From a virus, in IMG/VR virus record IMGVR_UViG_3300013102_000015, positions 1 through 45,309 of that record: a stretch of DNA of 45,309 bases; one strand, written 5' to 3'. Numbering within the stretch: the first letter of the stretch is position 1; every line of letters begins with the position of its first letter. The position numbers and the translations under genes are program-made. The notes under the pieces are model-generated. The model ran no database searches and was not told the DNA's origin. It worked only from the letters and a program-made list of their open reading frames with translations. Below are positions 3,608 to 25,273 of this stretch, in pieces.

Positions 3608-4083
3608 TGAATCTCAATAAGTTCAATAGGATAAATAGGCAAGTTCCACCATCTAGCATTATCTGCTATTCTGCCCCAATACTCTAAACCTTTTACTGAT
3701 TGACCCCAGCTAAATGAACATCCTATGAAATCCTCCAGATCATCAAAAGGAGTGGCTAGCCAATCCTGAGAAGAAAAATGAGATCTGTTATATCTCTTAA
3801 ATTCTTTCATCCATTCCCTACGCTCAGAGCGTGACAGTTTTCTCAAATAATAGTATCCTGTAGCACCTTTAACTAATCTGGGAACTTTTCCCATGGGATA
3901 ACGTTCTTTTATCAGCTGGTCCTTTACATAAGGGATATCTGTTAATGATGCTATCCCCACTGGATTTAACATGCCTAACTTTTCTAAATCTATGTAAGCC
4001 TCTGCCAGGGTATCAGATTTGAACTCATGCAAAGAAGAGGCTAACGGGATTCCATGTATGCCTAATTTTAAATTATTTTCCAT
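3595..4083 (-). CDS. Unknown soluble protein
   Basis: 162 residues, no membrane segment. The centre is basic and helical (LRKLSRSERREWMKEFKRYN, about 82-101) and the C-terminal part is rich in tryptophan (WNLPIYPIELIEIQW near the end). It overlaps the next gene by 13 bases if that gene uses its first ATG. No family recognised; position between the two terminase genes suggests a phage-specific accessory role. Confidence 0.55.
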   Translation of the reverse strand: MENNLKLGIHGIPLASSLHEFKSDTLAEAYIDLEKLGMLNPVGIASLTDIPYVKDQLIKERYPMGKVPRLVKGATGYYYLRKLSRSERREWMKEFKRYNRSHFSSQDWLATPFDDLEDFIGCSFSWGQSVKGLEYWGRIADNARWWNLPIYPIELIEIQWNH

Positions 4084-4200
4084 TGGTAAAAGATTTTAAT
4101 TGTTAACGGCCAAATGGCCAAGGTGTGAGGTCTTTTAGCTTATCCTCCTTACTATTCGTGGTGATCTTTAACACGGGTTACACCCTTTACCGTACCTTTG

Positions 4201-4265
4201 TCAGACTGGCAGGATTTGAACCTACTCGCCCATGAGCTTGCTCTATCCAACTGAGCTACAGTCTT
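4201..4265 (-). tRNA. Truncated tRNA-like gene (65 nt), contracted anticodon arm
   Basis: On the minus strand: acceptor AAGACTG (4265-4259) against CAGTCTG (4208-4202, 6 of 7 pairs), T8-A9, a canonical D arm (GCTC, loop AGTTGGATA, GAGC) and a T arm GTAGG-TTCAAAT-CCTGC, with A as discriminator and no encoded CCA. Only 14 nt separate the D and T stems, where a normal tRNA has about 23. The segment contains CTCATGG, which could be read as a loop with anticodon CAT, but only 2-3 pairs could support it. Either a decayed tRNA or a phage tRNA-like RNA. A 6-bp hairpin (4269-4292) stands immediately upstream of it. Confidence 0.6.
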
Positions 4266-10536: not shown

Positions 10537-10582
10537 AAATATTTTTTATAAAAATTTAAAATTATTTTTTTAATAAAAGAAA

Positions 10583-17632: not shown

Positions 17633-19855
17633 TTAGTCTTTTTTATAATATTTTGTTAAATATCCGTCAGCCGCCAAAGGTAAACCTTCCGCCCAGGAAA
17701 TAGGCTCACCCATTATATTGCACATAACTCTTAAATCATCTTCAGCATCATATGAGGGAATGTCAGCTACTACCTCATCATGCACGTGCATTGCGATAGC
17801 ATACCCTGCATTATTTAGCCTTTTCATGGAATCCGCCAAAATATCACGAGCAATAGCTTGCACAATATTCTCTACAAGTTTGCCTCCGTAAGTGTCTATA
17901 CGAGTCCATATTTTTTTAACCTGGTCCATACCCCAATAAATTATTTTATCTACTTCCCAGGTTCTTCCGGTTTGGATATCAGTTTTAAGAATTCTATTAA
18001 GTGGAACCCAGCCTGTTAACTCTTCCTTAGTTTCTGGGTCAATACGTTTTATTTCATATTTCATTTCCTTAACAATGGATGGTTTTTGGTAAAATAACGA
18101 TCTTCCTGAAGGAAGAGTAATAGTGAGTACGTTTCCATCATAATTAAATTTTATTCCGCGATAATCTGATATTTGCTCTTTTCTTTTTTTAATCGCTAGA
18201 ATAGCGTTTTTCTCCATATCACTCCATAACTCTACTATATTAGGATTTGCCTCTCTCCAAGCTTTGACAATAGCCTTCATTTCCCTTTTAGAAAGTCCCA
18301 TTTTATCGCCGCCCATTTTTATCATGGCTCCTACTCCTCCCTGATATCCTAGAGCTAATTCCGCTACTTTACCTTTAGCTCTCATATCAATATTAGACCC
18401 GTCATGCTCTACTCCATTTTCATCTATCCATCGAATGGTCTCAATTGGCACACCAAACATTTGAGAAGCCGAAGCCTCATAGATCATACCATGGCTGTTA
18501 AATACTTCTACTCTCCAAGGCTCAGAAGCTAACCAGGCTATTACTCTTGCCTCAATAGCTTTAAAATCTGCAACGGCAAATATATTATCATATTCTGGAA
18601 TAAATGCTGTGCGGACTAATTGAGATAACACGGATCCTATATCGTCATAAGCCAGATATAATCCATTGTAATTCCCAGATCGTACCAACTCCCTGACATA
18701 ATCTATTTCATCAAATCCGGTAATTTTATTCTTTTTCTTAAACTTGTTTTGTGGCAGGTTCTGCAACTGGATAAGCCTACCTGCCCATCGTCCTGTACGA
18801 TTGGCCCCATAAAACTGAAAAAGTCCATGAGCCCTACCGTCATTGCAGGCACAAGCTAACATGGCCATGTATTTCTTAACCGAAGTTTTAGCCAATTTTT
18901 TTCTAAGACTTAAAACTTCATAGGCGGCAGATCCACACCCAGCTTCGTCCATAAGTACTGGTATATCGTCCTTTGTGAGGCTTTTTATTTCTTTTCCCAT
19001 CTGAGAACTCAACCAGGTTTTTAGCTGGGCGGGACTGCCAGGATTAGCTAATCCTGTTAATCTCTTAAGTCTATACATTAAATCTATAGTATTTCTTTCA
19101 TCTATAGCTACGGCATTTTCAGCAAACGTAAGATCTATTTTAATCCCCCTATCATTTATTTCCTGATCTAAAATATACAATTGTTGCTCAGAATCAGGTA
19201 ATTTATATGCAGATAACATTTGTAGCATAGTATACTCAGCATTTACATCCTGCTTACAATATAGTTTATACTTTTCCCATTTTTCAGGATTATGATGTGG
19301 CAAATTACGAGTTCTACCTCCATTAATTTTGGTAGGTTTGACTGGAATAGAGAAATATCTTATTAATGCCTTTCCCTCTGCTTCTTTGGCAGCTTCTCCC
19401 AGGTTTAAAGCTTTAGATACATCTCCCAATGATAGCGGTAATCCACAATAAGCAGCTTTAACCGCTGAACAATGCCACTGTGAAATTGGTACTTTAATCC
19501 CTATTTGCTCAAAACATAACCTTTCAAAGGCCGCATTATGAGCGTGTTTTCTACATGCTTGGGAATACATAAGATATATAAATTCATAGGGTAAATCTTC
19601 TCCACTTGCTAAATCTACAGTTTTAATCACTCCGTCATTTATTTTATAACATACGATCAAAATTTCAAAATCTAAACTCTGAGCATACTTATAAACTCCT
19701 GACTTTGCGATATCCACCGAGCTATAAGTTTCTATATCTATGTAGAGATCTACTTCCTTATCGCTATACATGTGATTAAGATAATCATCAGCATCAAAAT
19801 TTTCCATCGATGCTAAATATTCTTCTAATCCTTCTGTACTATCGTAATAACTCAT
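17633..19855 (-). CDS. polA: Family A DNA polymerase (PolA-type)
   Basis: 740 residues. N-terminal 3'-5' exonuclease with LYIDIETYSS near 37-46 as ExoI. Polymerase motif A ADFKAIEARVIAWL near 428-441, motif B AKGKVAELALGYQGG near 493-507, motif C HVHDEV near 687-692. No 5'-3' exonuclease domain. Motifs are intact, so it should be the replicative polymerase of the phage. It overlaps the upstream 19852-20532 gene by 4 bases and is followed by the primase/helicase, giving the core replication operon. Confidence 0.95.
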   Translation of the reverse strand: MSYYDSTEGLEEYLASMENFDADDYLNHMYSDKEVDLYIDIETYSSVDIAKSGVYKYAQSLDFEILIVCYKINDGVIKTVDLASGEDLPYEFIYLMYSQACRKHAHNAAFERLCFEQIGIKVPISQWHCSAVKAAYCGLPLSLGDVSKALNLGEAAKEAEGKALIRYFSIPVKPTKINGGRTRNLPHHNPEKWEKYKLYCKQDVNAEYTMLQMLSAYKLPDSEQQLYILDQEINDRGIKIDLTFAENAVAIDERNTIDLMYRLKRLTGLANPGSPAQLKTWLSSQMGKEIKSLTKDDIPVLMDEAGCGSAAYEVLSLRKKLAKTSVKKYMAMLACACNDGRAHGLFQFYGANRTGRWAGRLIQLQNLPQNKFKKKNKITGFDEIDYVRELVRSGNYNGLYLAYDDIGSVLSQLVRTAFIPEYDNIFAVADFKAIEARVIAWLASEPWRVEVFNSHGMIYEASASQMFGVPIETIRWIDENGVEHDGSNIDMRAKGKVAELALGYQGGVGAMIKMGGDKMGLSKREMKAIVKAWREANPNIVELWSDMEKNAILAIKKRKEQISDYRGIKFNYDGNVLTITLPSGRSLFYQKPSIVKEMKYEIKRIDPETKEELTGWVPLNRILKTDIQTGRTWEVDKIIYWGMDQVKKIWTRIDTYGGKLVENIVQAIARDILADSMKRLNNAGYAIAMHVHDEVVADIPSYDAEDDLRVMCNIMGEPISWAEGLPLAADGYLTKYYKKD

Positions 19856-20532
19856 ATTAGATCTGAATTATCCTTTACAGGGTTTAAAATTACCGGATTG
19901 ATCACACATGCCTCATGATATAGAGGAAATTCCGATTTGAAAGGCGTTACCAGAATAGGAGCTGACGGTTTATCTACTTTATCCTTATCTTTAGCAGCGT
20001 GAAAGAATTCAAATCGTAGATTAAATAATCCTTCCTCACTTTGTTTAAAGGCTTTAGAAATAGCTGTCATTTGCGGAACTGCTACCCCACATCCTCTGAA
20101 GTGAGTATTACGTTTCTGAACCTTAGTAACATCTATATTATGATCTGTAAGCGCTGGAATAATTGTACTAAAATCAGGAAATTTTTTAAACCCTCTTACC
20201 AGATTATAATCGTCCATAAGATCGTCAAATAATTTGATCTCTCTATCTTTTCCGATGATTCCAGTATAATCTTTTATAAGCACCCCATTACAAACTATAC
20301 CCTCTTTAGAAAATTTAATATTTTTATTCGGAAATACAGTTAAATCCTCAGAGTTAAATACTTTGCCTTCTATATTTTTAATCTGCTCTTTATCCTTGCA
20401 GAAAGTAGACACATCAATATAACATGCCATTTTATTATTAGTAGCCATAAGCTTGCCGTTTAAAACTACAGCATAATGAAGCCAAGGTTTATCCTGGTCG
20501 GTCGATAAAAAGTCTAAGATATTTGGAAACAT
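19852..20532 (-). CDS. Unknown replication-operon protein (possible clamp-like)
   Basis: 226 residues, soluble. The opening (KPWLHYAVVLNGKLMATNNK near 15-34) reads like a clamp-type domain in which a protein checks whether a variable is set, a pattern I associate with sliding-clamp-like phage proteins. The later repeated strand-helix units and the gene's position directly before DNA polymerase, with a 4-base overlap, would fit a processivity factor. This is an inference from pattern and context. No catalytic motif seen. Confidence 0.55.
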   Translation of the reverse strand: MFPNILDFLSTDQDKPWLHYAVVLNGKLMATNNKMACYIDVSTFCKDKEQIKNIEGKVFNSEDLTVFPNKNIKFSKEGIVCNGVLIKDYTGIIGKDREIKLFDDLMDDYNLVRGFKKFPDFSTIIPALTDHNIDVTKVQKRNTHFRGCGVAVPQMTAISKAFKQSEEGLFNLRFEFFHAAKDKDKVDKPSAPILVTPFKSEFPLYHEACVINPVILNPVKDNSDLI

Positions 20533-20543
20533 ATTATAAAATT

Positions 20544-20690
20544 TTAATTATTAATTTCTTTAAGTCCTTTAGAAGTAATAACGTATTGAGTAAACGTTAT
20601 TTTTGAAATTAAACCTAGCCTTTGCAGGTTTAGAATAGTGTAATGGTCCACATACTCATTATTTACGATTTTTAGTAATTCTTTTGCCAT
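20544..20690 (-). CDS. Small HTH-like unknown protein (48 aa)
   Basis: ATG at 20690, TAA at 20544: MAKELLKIVNNEYVDHYTIL then NLQRLGLISKITFTQYVITS, ending with KGLKEINN. The helix-helix-strand pattern (NLQRLGLIS...YVITSKGLKE) is like a minimal winged-helix unit. It starts a few bases after the terminator at 20706-20730 and runs into the clamp-like gene. No promoter box is obvious. Probably real because of its tight position; function unknown. Confidence 0.5.
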   Translation of the reverse strand: MAKELLKIVNNEYVDHYTILNLQRLGLISKITFTQYVITSKGLKEINN

Positions 20691-20705
20691 AAGTAGAGTA
20701 AAAAA

Positions 20706-20730
20706 TCCCAGCCGACAAAGTCAGCCGGGA
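20706..20730 (-). terminator. Hairpin terminator after the tRNA-like gene
   Basis: TCCCAGCCGAC (20706-20716) pairs with GTCAGCCGGGA (20720-20730), 11 pairs with two G-T, loop AAA. Leftward it is followed by TTTTTTA. It would end a transcript coming from the tRNA-like gene at 20957-20813. A further 7-bp hairpin (20777-20783 with 20805-20811) lies between them. Confidence 0.8.
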
Positions 20731-20812
20731 TAAAAACTAATAACCATGAAAACTCAAATTAAACATGAGTTAGGATAAACTCCTGCAATTTTCTGTAGCT
20801 TAACGGAGTTTG

Positions 20813-20957
20813 TGAGAGGGACAGGATTCGAACCTGTATTTAGCCTTACCCATTTACTGGGGTATCGGAGAATCGAGCTCCTCTACTTGTTCCTTGCGTA
20901 CACGCTCAGGCTAACTCTACTTCCTTTTCGGACGTTTACCAATTTCGTCACCCTCTC
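20813..20957 (-). tRNA. tRNA-Leu-like gene with expanded middle (145 nt)
   Basis: On the minus strand: acceptor GAGAGGG (20957-20951) against CCCTCTC (20820-20814), a D arm with GACG, AAATTGGTAAA, CGTC very like tRNA-Leu, and a T arm ACAGG-TTCGAAT-CCTGT. Discriminator A, no encoded CCA. About 93 nt lie between the D and T arms where a tRNA-Leu has about 38. That insert has a 7-bp helix TTAGCCT/AGGCTAA closing three small hairpins and a partial repeat of AAGTAGAG. No canonical anticodon arm is clear; CTCGATT (CGA) is one candidate loop but lacks the usual purine after it. Intron, tandem duplication or tRNA-like RNA are alternatives. Confidence 0.6.
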
Positions 20958-20963
20958 GATTTA

Positions 20964-20989
20964 AAAAGAGGCTAATTAAAGCCTCTTTT
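20964..20989 (-). terminator. Terminator after the DUF2815 gene
   Basis: AAAAGAGGC (20964-20972) pairs with GCCTCTTTT (20981-20989), 8-nt loop, with a T run (TTTTT) on the leftward side. It stands 8 bases after the stop of the 20997 gene. It separates that gene from the tRNA-like gene, which would need readthrough or its own promoter. Confidence 0.8.
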
Positions 20990-21604: not shown

Positions 21605-21635
21605 CAAATGTAGTTTTTATTTTTTAAATATCAAA
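21605..21635 (-). promoter_or_regulatory. Promoter of the DUF2815 gene
   Basis: TTTG (21635-21632), 19-nt spacer, TACATTTG (21612-21605) on the minus strand. Unlike the other modules the leader is longer (about 50 nt to the ATG at 21551) and lacks the ATGTAATTAAAA sequence. Confidence 0.75.
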
Positions 21636-21664: not shown

Positions 21665-22882
21665 TTATGTAAAATCTCTGATGGCTGATTCAGTGCCCAT
21701 AGATGGACGGCTATCTTTTTCAGAAACCAAAGAAGGTTTCCCAGGTGGCTTAACCCATAATCCTCCTAATACTTCTTTAAACTGGACTTTACCCATTAAT
21801 TTCTCCATAGCTGTAATGCCGTTCAATTTATGAGTGAATATTTGTTTATCCGGGTAAATATTATCCCTAAGAGTTTCTATTACCTTTTCCTGATCCTTCC
21901 AAATTCGGTTAGACCTTCCCTCTACCAGCTTAAGCCCTTTATATGTTTTACCAGATAATGCCTGATCATGCATATACGCATGTACTGAAGTAATCCATTC
22001 TTTTATAACGGGAATTTGTAAATATAACTTAACCATTTCATCATCAGACAGAAGATTATCGGGTTTATCATTATCTGCGAATTCCATTTTAGCAGCTTCT
22101 ATGCTGAATTCATAAAGTGCCCTACATTTAGGTGCTACTTTACAAAATCTACAATGGGATCCGGCTTTTAATTCTCCCTCTCCTTTAAATGCTTTTTGTG
22201 CTAATGGGGCTAGTTCATTTTTTGCCCAATTTAGCAGATCCTCTACTGTGATATCCCAAGTAGAAATATGATCTAACCGGGGTTGTACAATTGTAAGGCG
22301 GATAATATCTATCTCGTGGGTTAAGCTGTATCGCAAATAAGCTCCCAAAGCGTATAATTTTAATTGAGAGTTATCTTCTGCATCTACCTGAACCCCTTTA
22401 CCGTATTTTAAATCCGTTACTTTCAGAATATATGTTTCAGAAGGATTAAGATATTGAGCTGCAACGGGCAAAATAATAGCATCACATGTCCCATATCCTT
22501 CAGGAACGTAAGCGCTAAAATTTACTTTCTCTTCAATTATAAGAGTTCCGCCTTTAGATGCTGCTAATTGTTCTAGAACATAATCCGTATATACTGCTAC
22601 ATGTTCTTCCATATCATCAGTATACAATTCGTGTGATCTTAGTTCAAATAGTTTCGCTTTATACGCCTGATCCGATAATATACCTTGACTTTTTTTAAGC
22701 TCTGTATCTGCAAACTCATGAGCCAAAGTACCCTCTTCTGCATGAACTGAAGTTTTAGAGGGGAATGGGTCTTCCAATCTTGCGGATGGGGTGCACTTAA
22801 GCCATCTACTTGCTCCAGAAGCGGAGAGAAGGGCGTGGGCCCTTTCCCCGTGGTTTATATCTTCTGTAGTTACTTTAGGCAT
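21665..22882 (-). CDS. DUF2800 PD-(D/E)xK nuclease (RecB/Cas4-like)
   Basis: 405 residues. Opening ERAHALLSASGASRWLKCTP near 13-32, HAEEGTLAHEFAD near 47-59, then DLKYGKGV near 157-164, giving the H...D...xK nuclease core; CRFCKVAPKCRAL near 246-258 is the cysteine cluster that, with C30, may hold an iron-sulfur cluster as in Cas4/AddB nucleases. DUF2800 genes accompany DUF2815 and PolA in phage replication modules and probably process DNA ends in recombination. It is the third gene of the operon started by the XRE-like gene, sharing one base with the upstream gene. Confidence 0.87.
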   Translation of the reverse strand: MPKVTTEDINHGERAHALLSASGASRWLKCTPSARLEDPFPSKTSVHAEEGTLAHEFADTELKKSQGILSDQAYKAKLFELRSHELYTDDMEEHVAVYTDYVLEQLAASKGGTLIIEEKVNFSAYVPEGYGTCDAIILPVAAQYLNPSETYILKVTDLKYGKGVQVDAEDNSQLKLYALGAYLRYSLTHEIDIIRLTIVQPRLDHISTWDITVEDLLNWAKNELAPLAQKAFKGEGELKAGSHCRFCKVAPKCRALYEFSIEAAKMEFADNDKPDNLLSDDEMVKLYLQIPVIKEWITSVHAYMHDQALSGKTYKGLKLVEGRSNRIWKDQEKVIETLRDNIYPDKQIFTHKLNGITAMEKLMGKVQFKEVLGGLWVKPPGKPSLVSEKDSRPSMGTESAIRDFT

Positions 22883-23523
22883 TATAGCGATTTTAGGAAA
22901 TCCATAAATGTAATGAAATGGGATTCGTCTAAGTTTGTTAACTTAGTAGCGCCTAATTCATTAAGTTTAGCTACGATAGCATCTCGATTGGCGTCTACTT
23001 TTGCCCCCAATTCTACTTTTAAAACATCTAAGGTTATTTCAGAATCTGTTGATTTAGATTTCTTTTTATCCTCTTTCATATCGGTTTCAGTATCATTATT
23101 CTCTTCCTTTTCCGAAGTATCCTTATCCTCCTCTTTTTCTGAAGAGTTAAAGTGTCTTAATATAAGTTTAGCTAATTTAGCATTAGTATTTTTACCTTCA
23201 GTAGCGGCCCATTCAATACCAAGAGAAGAAGCTATAACTTTAAGTTCTTCATTAGGGATAGCTTTTAATTCATCCTCCGTGTACTCGCTTACAGCCCCTG
23301 CTTTTTCTAATTCTTCTGTTTTGAATTCCTTCGTAATCATAGCTTCAGATAGAAAAGCTGTACTAGGCGCTAAGGCTTCTTTTGTCATTGAACCCACCGC
23401 AAATGCAACAGATTCAGCTACATTTTGATTATTACCCCCTAGGGCTAATGTTAATTTACCTAATAATTCCGCATCCCCCGGATTATATGTATCCAGGTCA
23501 AGTGTAAGATTAATTCTTGCCAT
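22882..23523 (-). CDS. Unknown acidic replication-operon protein
   Basis: 213 residues. N-terminal globular part with LTLDLDTYNPGDAELLGKLT near 6-25, a low-complexity charged linker rich in Glu, Lys and Asp (about 128-160), and a C-terminal helical domain (LDVLKVELGAKVDANRDAI, about 168-186) ending DFLKSL. The linker joins two domains as in scaffolding or DNA-binding adaptors. It overlaps both neighbours, so it is translated with the XRE-like protein and DUF2800. Function not recognised. Confidence 0.6.
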   Translation of the reverse strand: MARINLTLDLDTYNPGDAELLGKLTLALGGNNQNVAESVAFAVGSMTKEALAPSTAFLSEAMITKEFKTEELEKAGAVSEYTEDELKAIPNEELKVIASSLGIEWAATEGKNTNAKLAKLILRHFNSSEKEEDKDTSEKEENNDTETDMKEDKKKSKSTDSEITLDVLKVELGAKVDANRDAIVAKLNELGATKLTNLDESHFITFMDFLKSL

Positions 23524-23938
23524 TTTGTTTATTGTTTAAAATTAAATTGTCTAATTCTGTGAAATACTGTGATAGAGGCATTGTATTAGCATCTACGATA
23601 ACTGCCTCATGAAATATAGAGTTTTTATGGAAAATCTTAGTTATCCATGTATCTCTGTCTAATTCGGCCCGGTAGTCCTCGTTTTCAAAAGCTAATGAAT
23701 TATCAGAAGCCTTACGAGGTAAGTTCTTCCAGTTGCCCTGTTCAAATAGTTCATTAACAGGTATCCCAGTAAGGAATGATAATTTTGAAACCTGCTCAGT
23801 ATTTAAAAGAGCTTCACCATTAATGACCCTGCTTAATGCTATCATAGGATATTTATTCTCAGGGAATAATTCCGCAGCCACTTTTTTTGTATCTAAATTA
23901 TATTTCTCTATGACAGAGGATAAGATAAATTTATTCAT
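23510..23938 (-). CDS. XRE-like protein heading the replication operon
   Basis: 142 residues. The first 65 residues form an HTH pattern: KKVAAELFPEN, then PMIALSRVINGEALLNTEQV as turn plus recognition helix, then LSFLTGIPVNELF, as in Cro/C1-type helix-turn-helix proteins. The rest is a mixed domain with WITKIFHKNSIFHEAVIVDA. It is the first large gene of the replication operon, two repeats away from repeat region 2, so it is the best candidate in the genome for the protein that binds AAACAAT palindromes. That link is inference. No repressor-type dimer domain is visible. Confidence 0.7.
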   Translation of the reverse strand: MNKFILSSVIEKYNLDTKKVAAELFPENKYPMIALSRVINGEALLNTEQVSKLSFLTGIPVNELFEQGNWKNLPRKASDNSLAFENEDYRAELDRDTWITKIFHKNSIFHEAVIVDANTMPLSQYFTELDNLILNNKQNGKN

Positions 23939-24108
23939 ATGATTATTTTAATTGTTACTATCCAGACTATGACATTCACACAGGCCAGAATTATAAATAA
24001 TTCTGACATATTATATTTTCTCTCTTTGTGTTGAGTTGCGATCCCTATAAATCCAAAAAGGTAAAGGACATATAGAAAAGATAAAAATGCTACTGTAAAT
24101 TTTTTCAT
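23935..24108 (-). CDS. Small membrane protein (57 aa)
   Basis: Start chosen at ATG 24108 (MKKFTVAF), 18 nt after the TATATTTG box; an upstream in-frame ATG at 24129 would overlap the promoter. Two hydrophobic segments (about 6-21 VAFLSFLYVLYLFGFI and about 39-56 FIILACVNVIVWIVTIKI). It overlaps the XRE-like gene by 4 bases and leads the replication operon. Function unknown. Confidence 0.6.
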   Translation of the reverse strand: MKKFTVAFLSFLYVLYLFGFIGIATQHKERKYNMSELFIILACVNVIVWIVTIKIII

Positions 24109-24126
24109 GTCGTTTTGTTTACATGG

Positions 24127-24134
24127 CAAATATA
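24127..24134 (-). promoter_or_regulatory. Promoter -7 box of the replication operon
   Basis: TATATTTG on the minus strand followed by leader CCATGTAAACAAAA, a variant of the shared leader. The -33 position lacks TTTG, so an activator bound in the adjacent repeat region 2 may be needed. An A/T tract (24135-24185) lies between it and the repeats. Confidence 0.6.
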
Positions 24135-24188
24135 CAATTAATATTTAAAAATAAAAATAATTTTTACAAAAATTTAAAAATATTTTGC

Positions 24189-24480
24189 CTAAACAATAAA
24201 TAAAAGTTATTGTTTAGACCTTAACTATATGAAAGTCAATATAGTTACAGGCCAAAATTACTCATTTTAAACAATAAACAATAAAACTTGCGCACCCTTA
24301 TATATGTATATGCGTTTTTATATGTGTTTTTATATGTGTATTTTAGGTGTATATTATCTATATACCATAATATAAAAAGATTTAATATATTTATTGTTTT
24401 ATTGTTTATAATACAAAAAAGCCCTCTGATAGAAGGGCTTTATCTTTAAACGATGTATTGTTTAAATTGTTTAAACTTGT
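24189..24480. repeat. Repeat region 2: candidate origin or operator array (no gene)
   Basis: About 290 bp without a gene. It holds the inverted repeat CTAAACAATAA...TTATTGTTTAG (24189-24217), AAACAAT/ACAATAAA direct repeats (24264-24289), TATATGTATATGCG near 24301-24314, TTTATTGTTTTATTGTTTA (24390-24408), the one-mismatch palindrome 24445-24466, and TTGTTTAA units up to the stop at 24481. Bases 24189-24320 align without gaps with 5138-5269; later parts drift by a 13-nt indel. Both regions have the same orientation and lie upstream of leftward operons: here the replication operon, at region 1 the terminase. Confidence 0.75.
24418..24441 (-). terminator. Terminator of the lysis operon
   Basis: AAAGCCCT (24418-24425) pairs with AGGGCTTT (24434-24441), 8-nt loop, with a T run (TTTTTT) in the leftward direction. 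It lies inside repeat region 2, after the last gene (24481-24702). Confidence 0.82.
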
Positions 24481-24702
24481 TTAAGATTTATTCAATTCAT
24501 CTTGTAATCTTAAGATTTCGGATTTTGTTCTCTCTAAAAGCTTGTATCTTTCATCTATGTAAATCTTAAAATCAGTATCGTATTCATCATAATTTTCGAT
24601 GAAAGAATTAAGTAGCACCTGAGTAGATTCTATTTGTTTTAATTCAGAATCTAACGCAGTGTTAACAAATCCCCCGATACTCTCTTTTGGTGGTGTTGGC
24701 AT
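24481..24702 (-). CDS. Small coiled-coil unknown protein
   Basis: 73 residues. A proline-rich start (MPTPPKES) and a long helical remainder, with heptad-like leucines (KLLERTKSEILRLQDEL) suggesting a short coiled coil. It is the last gene after the endolysin, and its stop codon lies at the edge of repeat region 2. A lysis-accessory role is possible only by location. Confidence 0.55.
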   Translation of the reverse strand: MPTPPKESIGGFVNTALDSELKQIESTQVLLNSFIENYDEYDTDFKIYIDERYKLLERTKSEILRLQDELNKS

Positions 24703-24715
24703 AATATAAATTTAT

Positions 24716-25273
24716 TTAAATTGATTTTATAATTTGTTCAAAAATAGTAGCATATGATGCAATAAGCCCCGCTTTGTCTGTGCCGTTTATACACTTTCTG
24801 GCATTTTTATAATCTTTATCTTTTAGATTAATATAATCTGATATTTTTTTACCTGTAAATGATCCATGAATAAATCCATAAATCATTATATGGAAAGCGT
24901 TTGCCGGATCCATAACTAAATCAGGATTATTTACAAAATCTACCCCCATTAATTTTGAAAACTTAGAGTAATTATCTTTCCAAGTTATCTGTACAAATCC
25001 CCTACCGTAATATGGATAATATCTTAAATTCTTTTTTCTCCATGCCTCTGCATTTGGTAGCCAGTAGGCCTCCCTCACAGGTAGAAATGTGGCTTTAGTC
25101 TCGTGAAATGTAGTAGCGAACACATATGACCATTGAGGAATAGATAGGTCCTTAAATGAGCTATCTACAAAATCTAAGAAGTTATCCAAGGCGTTAACCT
25201 CGTTTTGGTCTAATTTCCGGTTAGGATCTAATCGGGATCTGTACCCGACAAAGAAAAGTTTTCTATTTATCAT
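24716..25273 (-). CDS. Endolysin, GH19 chitinase-like (lysozyme-type)
   Basis: 185 residues. The GH19 fold is marked by TTFHETKATF near 54-63 (catalytic Glu58), a second acid Glu68 in VREAYW, and the YGRGFVQITWKDNY box at 89-102. It cuts peptidoglycan at the end of infection. No signal peptide, so export depends on the holin. It lies four bases into the spanin gene end and completes the lysis cassette with holin and spanin. GH19 endolysins are common in phages of Gram-negative hosts, including Bacteroidota. Confidence 0.92.
   Translation of the reverse strand: MINRKLFFVGYRSRLDPNRKLDQNEVNALDNFLDFVDSSFKDLSIPQWSYVFATTFHETKATFLPVREAYWLPNAEAWRKKNLRYYPYYGRGFVQITWKDNYSKFSKLMGVDFVNNPDLVMDPANAFHIMIYGFIHGSFTGKKISDYINLKDKDYKNARKCINGTDKAGLIASYATIFEQIIKSI

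Follow-up and report, generated by a model that had tools for sequence, protein, structure and literature searches.

What is the nature of an RNA that has the acceptor, D and T arms of a tRNA, but in which 94 nt take the place of anticodon and variable regions? The question is raised by a 145-nt tRNA-like structure, here called element 1, on the minus strand (20813..20957) of a viral DNA of 45,309 nt; the window, as we use the word, is this whole stretch. The original prediction had called it a tRNA-Leu-like gene and had offered three readings of the insert: an intron, a duplication, or the sign of a non-translating tRNA mimic.

Element 1 and its surroundings

Every part of the tRNA-like body is confirmed on the minus strand, which carries nearly all large genes of the window. 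The 5′ strand of the acceptor stem, GAGAGGG (20951..20957), pairs at 7 of 7 positions with CCCTCTC (20820-20814), which together with the discriminator A73 at 20813 forms the 3′ end of the body (20813..20820); the genome then reads CAAA, and CCA is not encoded. The D arm, ACG-AAATTGGTAAA-CGT (20932..20948), carries UUGG in its loop, the T arm, ACAGG-TTCGAAT-CCTGT (20821..20837), is paired at 5 of 5 stem positions, and T8 (U8) and G9 can be read directly. A strict structural pattern composed of these features (7/7 acceptor, T8, GG in the D loop, 5/5 T stem, TTCRA loop) is matched at a single place in the 45-kb window, element 1 being the sole such structure in that scan. When the 400-nt region of element 1 was shuffled 2000 times with its dinucleotides preserved, the pattern arose once, or about 0.0005 per shuffled region. 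The whole body folds at -44.6 kcal/mol (z = -2.8), a stability that none of 200 shuffles equalled.

Element 1 nevertheless scores 16.6 bits against the Rfam tRNA model RF00005, under the cut-off of 29. Rfam returned nothing for the window at gathering thresholds, and ARAGORN made no credible call for element 1, intron and relaxed settings included. A tmRNA, with an Ala-type tRNA domain and a tag reading frame, was rejected as ARAGORN in its tmRNA mode gave none. Neither a nucleotide search of element 1 against 50,697 phage records nor an exact-motif scan of IMG/VR returned a match.

The insert (20838..20931, minus strand) measures 94 nt, close to the 93 nt first estimated. Its minimum free energy structure does contain the proposed 7-bp helix, UUAGCCU/AGGCUAA, closing three hairpins, while the further suggestion that it forms a domain in itself finds no support: on its own it folds no better than shuffled sequence would (z = -1.05, with 27 of 200 shuffles matching it). 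The internal repeat reported in it, an 8-nt AAGTAGAG, is present and marginal (P = 0.045 in the shuffled insert), and we judged it to be at the level of chance (P about 0.05), as we did, on a rough estimate, an approximate complement of AAGTAGAG near 20690. No close relative of this particular insert was found among the 50,697 phage records or by exact motif in IMG/VR.

Element 1 lies downstream of a gene for a Gp2.5/Enc34-type single-stranded DNA-binding protein (SSB; phrog_112, PF10991; 20997..21551, minus strand) and is followed in the same gene run by a small ORF, a further ORF, the family A DNA polymerase (17633..19855, minus strand) and a VapE-type primase/helicase. A Bacteroidota-type promoter, TTG-n-TAnnTTTG (21605..21634, minus strand), stands 53 nt before the SSB start. 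With a spacer of 18-22 nt this consensus has 12 matches on the minus strand of the window and 0 on the plus strand, several of which have in common the core TTGTTTATTGTTTAAAAT (5230, 24281). As the next match downstream of the SSB promoter is only at 10537, the simplest assumption is that the SSB promoter also drives transcription of element 1. Of the two terminators said to bracket it, the one about 80 nt downstream is a strong intrinsic terminator with a 12-bp stem and a T run (20705..20731, minus strand). The other (20964..20989, minus strand), between the SSB stop codon and element 1, is a genuine 10-bp hairpin ending 6 nt before the acceptor, whose T run falls mostly within the stem; a counterpart at similar spacing is present in most relatives.

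A family of tRNA mimics in related phages

Relatives were gathered by searches with the SSB and the DNA polymerase of the window, and then with the SSBs of Croceibacter phage P2559Y and Bacteroides fragilis phage BF486P2. The gap between SSB and DNA polymerase holds, in about two dozen divergent related phages, a tRNA-like element of 67-197 nt, differing in sequence from one phage to another. This family, which is well supported, comprises IMG/VR contigs together with P2559Y (L022, 87 nt) and BF486P2 (L023, 67 nt); judging from these cultured phages and from the type of promoter, the hosts of the other contigs probably also belong to Bacteroidota. Members have the 7-bp acceptor, the D arm with GG and the T arm with TTCRANY of RF00005, and the P2559Y element scores 52 bits to that model though it has no anticodon arm. 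ARAGORN misses most members or calls them odd tRNAs.

The strict pattern is found in 15 of 15 SSB-downstream regions against 0.001 expected from shuffles, a figure that gauges chance and not prevalence, the regions having been picked as carriers. Over 13 phage genomes, scanned in pieces, it has 18 matches against 0.3 expected. Eleven of these, in 11 of the 13 genomes, lie in the SSB slot and are in most cases the sole tRNA-like structure of the genome; most of the remainder are true tRNAs or tRNA-likes of other kinds. A further scan, relaxed in geometry and stricter in pairing, adds an element in contig G015 and a set of minihelices in gut phage contig G022. The element is missing from several related phages (L024, L030, L048, L101, L104). 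Elizabethkingia phage TCUEAP1, L030, L048, L101 and L104 have the hairpin with no mimic, so that the function of the mimic is dispensable. A scan of genome contigs with an SSB alignment returned almost only Firmicutes prophages and was uninformative on the element.

The same slot has other contents too. Another phage group has three ordinary tRNA genes (Met, Asn, Pro) after SSB (L094 3508-3741). In P2559Y the tRNA-like element is followed by about 540 nt of non-coding DNA (19433-19985), partly conserved in L027, which contains AGTTCTTTAARAGGGTA...GTAACTC, a motif present in L044 as well.

Is the shape of these elements maintained, or are they remnants of tRNA genes captured in the past and now without function? 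Some observations might suggest decay: the anticodon arms are lost, acceptor stems are weakened in L044, L038/L042 and L111, and canonical tRNAs occupy the slot in the phage group just mentioned. Neutral decay would, however, disrupt stems and arms equally, and the 15 core pairs (acceptor 7, D 3, T 5) of 20 divergent members are paired in 99.3% of cells, with 14 of the 15 changed on both sides, so that pairing is kept through double changes in the D and T arms as in the acceptor. The covariation score is 1.09 against 0.28 for shuffled alignments and at most 0.24 when slid; a second set of 23 members covered the acceptor and T stems only. Since unrelated tRNAs would covary likewise, the comparisons that matter are those between close relatives, and six close pairs display 14 double changes, 7 single changes that keep the pair and 1 that breaks it. 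L118 and L119 differ in the first acceptor pair (G-C to A-U); L120 and L121 differ in an acceptor pair (G-C to A-U) and in a T-stem pair (U-A to C-G). Pairing in the acceptor, D and T stems is thus maintained by compensatory changes, for which the original prediction had looked to related phages, and the plain decay of relatives that would have told against it is not seen: the acceptor and T arm are retained. We regard decaying tRNA genes as a very improbable explanation.

No anticodon arm, defined as a 5-bp stem with at least 4 pairs, a 7-nt loop and U33, follows the D arm in any of 26 elements, whereas all 4 canonical tRNAs of the same phages have one; we therefore class the elements as non-decoding tRNA-likes and not as tRNAs. 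The anticodon region is anything between 14 and 147 nt long. A 5-bp stem does occupy the place of the anticodon stem in about a dozen members, with 12-88 nt replacing the 7-nt loop and a variable region of 3-4 nt after it (among those with such an opened stem are L034, L037, L038, L045, L105, L106, L118 and L122), which is what a translating tRNA would look like if an intron in its anticodon loop were removed by some splicing activity. Several relatives are, on the contrary, too short to hold an anticodon, with a 4-nt loop in L029, a 5-nt loop in BF486P2, a 6-nt loop on a longer stem in L123, and similarly reduced regions in L035b and in a second element of the window described below. Element 1 itself lacks a 5-bp stem where the anticodon stem would be, and at 94 nt without an Rfam intron match its insert is far from a group I intron, the core of which takes about 200 nt or more with its catalytic helices. 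This spread of forms excludes a single intron mechanism and, as far as can be read from structure, makes decoding by the family very unlikely; a spliced, translating tRNA is accordingly an explanation to which we give hardly any credence. The intron offered by the original prediction is not supported, nor is the duplication; relatives in the same gap have the acceptor, D and T arms in common and not the insert. Its third option, that of a non-translating mimic, is supported. As for the tRNA-Leu label, it suits the D arm and A73 of element 1, but other members resemble other isoacceptors, and amino-acid identity is hence not the conserved property.

Related structures also occur outside the SSB slot. 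Element 2 of the window (4201..4265, minus strand), 65 nt long with tRNA-like D and T arms, scores 35.7 bits against RF00005 (cut-off 29) and has an 8-nt remnant where the model expects a 17-nt anticodon arm; neither ARAGORN nor the fast Rfam scan picked it up. It is preceded by a promoter (4595-4567) and a 79-aa ORF and followed by the next ORF, so that both elements come after the promoter-proximal gene of their unit. Just 3′ of the tRNA-like structure, the window (4115-4165, minus strand) and L029 (about 3700-3745, plus strand) have a common non-coding motif, CCACRAATAGYAAGG...GATAAGCTAAAAGAC, a possible conserved hairpin with a 13-nt loop and no match to an Rfam family. The G022 contig has six minihelices of about 45-46 nt (L296 4501-7219, corresponding to G022 about 22301-25019), each made up of a 7-bp acceptor stem, a short linker retaining TTGG and a T arm, which is weaker in two of the six. 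They are located at or just past the ends of six consecutive small genes or gene pairs, and the gene after each starts within about 70 nt. The array carries a repeated leader, TTTAAATGACAAGAATTATGGA, as in a gene-cassette array, and because the repeats take in part of the leader of the next gene, it must have grown by duplication of gene cassettes. In G015 (L293/L269; 32675-32900) a 54-nt tRNA-like structure has acceptor, D and T arms with the anticodon arm absent, and adjoins a second one lacking the D arm.

What the mimics may do

What could be the role of a tRNA shape preserved without decoding? The explanation that we favour, with middling confidence, is that the element, a non-decoding mimic, serves as a signal for RNA processing (‘punctuation’) on the polycistronic transcript of the replication genes. 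The transcript would begin upstream of SSB and run through the mimic; host RNase P would cut at the 5′ end of the mimic, giving an SSB message that ends in the hairpin, and a cut or trimming at the 3′ end would separate the downstream genes. The acceptor/T stack and the elbow of D loop and T loop would be the parts read by RNase P and the tRNA 3′-processing enzymes, and the anticodon region would be free to shrink, grow or take up extra hairpins. We infer that the mimics are transcribed, that RNase P or a 3′ nuclease cleaves them, and that the phage benefits.

Several features of the loci are consistent with such processing. In 29 of 30 loci a search based on the consensus detected no Bacteroidota promoter in the interval from SSB to polymerase, and in several phages the polymerase starts so close behind the element (some 2 nt in L123 and some 20 nt in L002, L028 and L038) that there is no room for one; the absence of a recognisable promoter between them suggests that SSB and the element are co-transcribed. 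Upstream of the element, about 20 of 25 loci have a stem of 6-15 bp no more than 20 nt away, its 3′ arm mostly ending 5-11 nt before the acceptor, a spacing that roughly matches the leader gripped by RNase P, the bacterial protein subunit binding leader positions -4 to -7 (PMC4919922). Hairpins consisting of acceptor stem, T stem and T loop alone are cleaved by E. coli RNase P RNA (PMC11143913), and polycistronic mRNAs are among the targets of RNase P (Li and Altman 2003, as cited in PMC4919922). The location of each G022 minihelix at or just after a gene end also speaks for punctuation.

Other features fit less well. The upstream hairpin exceeds nearly all shuffles in about 14 of the 25 loci and is weak in some of the others and not detectable in several, which counts against the proposal, as do the related phages that have a hairpin and no mimic, and the prediction that a canonical RNase P cut in the G022 minihelices would fall inside the upstream stop codon. 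The acceptor/T stack and leader spacing of an RNase P substrate are present, with a 3′ end that reads ACAA, ACTA or similar rather than RCCA (C74 is common among the family, C75 is not), so that bacterial RNase P would hold the 3′ end less firmly unless CCA had been added beforehand.

The strong terminator after element 1 also allows for a free-standing RNA, released between hairpin and terminator, processed like a tRNA and stable, and serving in trans as a decoy that draws off tRNA-handling enzymes or a defence nuclease, or as a carrier of the fast-changing insert. The tRNA fold protects RNA, the inserts are large and strongly variable, and one gut clade has conserved hairpins in common (CAGCAAT..CCATAATGCTG), all of which speak for such a molecule. 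The elements are, on the other hand, usually present in single copy at one operon junction, with a start codon close by in several loci, an arrangement favouring action in cis; a decoy for anticodon nucleases would retain the anticodon loop, which 0 of 26 elements do, and the insert of the window is not unusually structured on its own. We consider a free-standing RNA unlikely, though it is the stronger of two main rivals.

Action in cis need not involve cleavage. The mimic might be an operator or attenuator to which a protein of phage or host (SSB, polymerase or a tRNA enzyme) binds, so that expression of the replication genes is tuned while the RNA stays uncut. Phage T4 offers a precedent in its SSB and polymerase, both of which control their own translation, and the position between SSB and polymerase, adjoining the polymerase start in several phages, would suit an operator, as would the alternative structures that hairpin and mimic could form. 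In the window, though, the next gene is a small ORF past the terminator and not the polymerase, and element 2 and the G022 minihelices adjoin unrelated genes, which leaves regulation without cutting improbable. Returning to RNA processing as the preferred role, we suggest tentatively a broader version of it: phages of Bacteroidota might use anticodon-free tRNA mimics, down to 45-nt minihelices of acceptor and T arm, as general punctuation that recruits the tRNA-maturation enzymes of the host to cut polycistronic mRNA.

Significance and known parallels

To our knowledge, operons divided by tRNA mimics are known only from mitochondria and a few eukaryotic RNAs, and literature searches, with most subscription journals outside their scope, did not turn up any account of tRNA-like elements lacking an anticodon in the operons of phages. 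If the proposal is correct, phages of a major gut and marine bacterial phylum split their replication operons by means of mimics cut by the host tRNA machinery. DNA viruses would then have their own equivalent of mitochondrial tRNA punctuation, in which the anticodon region, no longer under selection, is open to new domains, and RNase P would gain non-tRNA substrates that are testable in cultured phage-host pairs. Whatever the function, about two dozen divergent members selected for tRNA shape without decoding constitute a natural experiment on the parts of tRNA that serve non-translational enzymes, and the members missed or mislabelled by ARAGORN expose a gap in annotation.

How do the mimics compare with known RNAs? 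Element 1 has the acceptor, D and T arms, elbow bases and A73 of a tRNA, in particular tRNA-Leu, and differs from the RF00005 model by its missing anticodon arm and its sub-threshold score. It resembles tRNA-Leu(UAA) with a group I intron in its enlarged tRNA-Leu-like body, but its insert is too short and gives no group I signal, and its relatives have deletions. The antisense C4 RNA of phages P1 and P7, listed among RNase P substrates (PMC11143913), is a phage RNA processed by RNase P, yet it is an antisense regulator of enterobacterial phages, unrelated to the mimics in sequence and position. Three other systems come nearest. MALAT1/mascRNA and menRNA provide a tRNA-like module without a working anticodon that is cut by RNase P and RNase Z and ends the upstream RNA (PMC4919922); these are mammalian long non-coding RNAs, whereas the phage mimics reside in an operon. 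In animal mitochondria, as in the G022 array, successive genes are separated by tRNA-shaped spacers, although the mitochondrial ones are working tRNAs and the phage mimics cannot decode. Finally, the t-elements of plant mitochondria are tRNA-like signals for the processing of mRNA ends (Forner 2007, as cited in PMC8003010). They are organellar and are processed within the organelle by PRORP/RNase Z, while the mimics belong to DNA phages of Bacteroidota and their processing is putative; both are tRNA-shaped and non-decoding, retain acceptor, T and D parts, and lie between genes on one polycistronic RNA, which in the case of the phages is a probable transcript.
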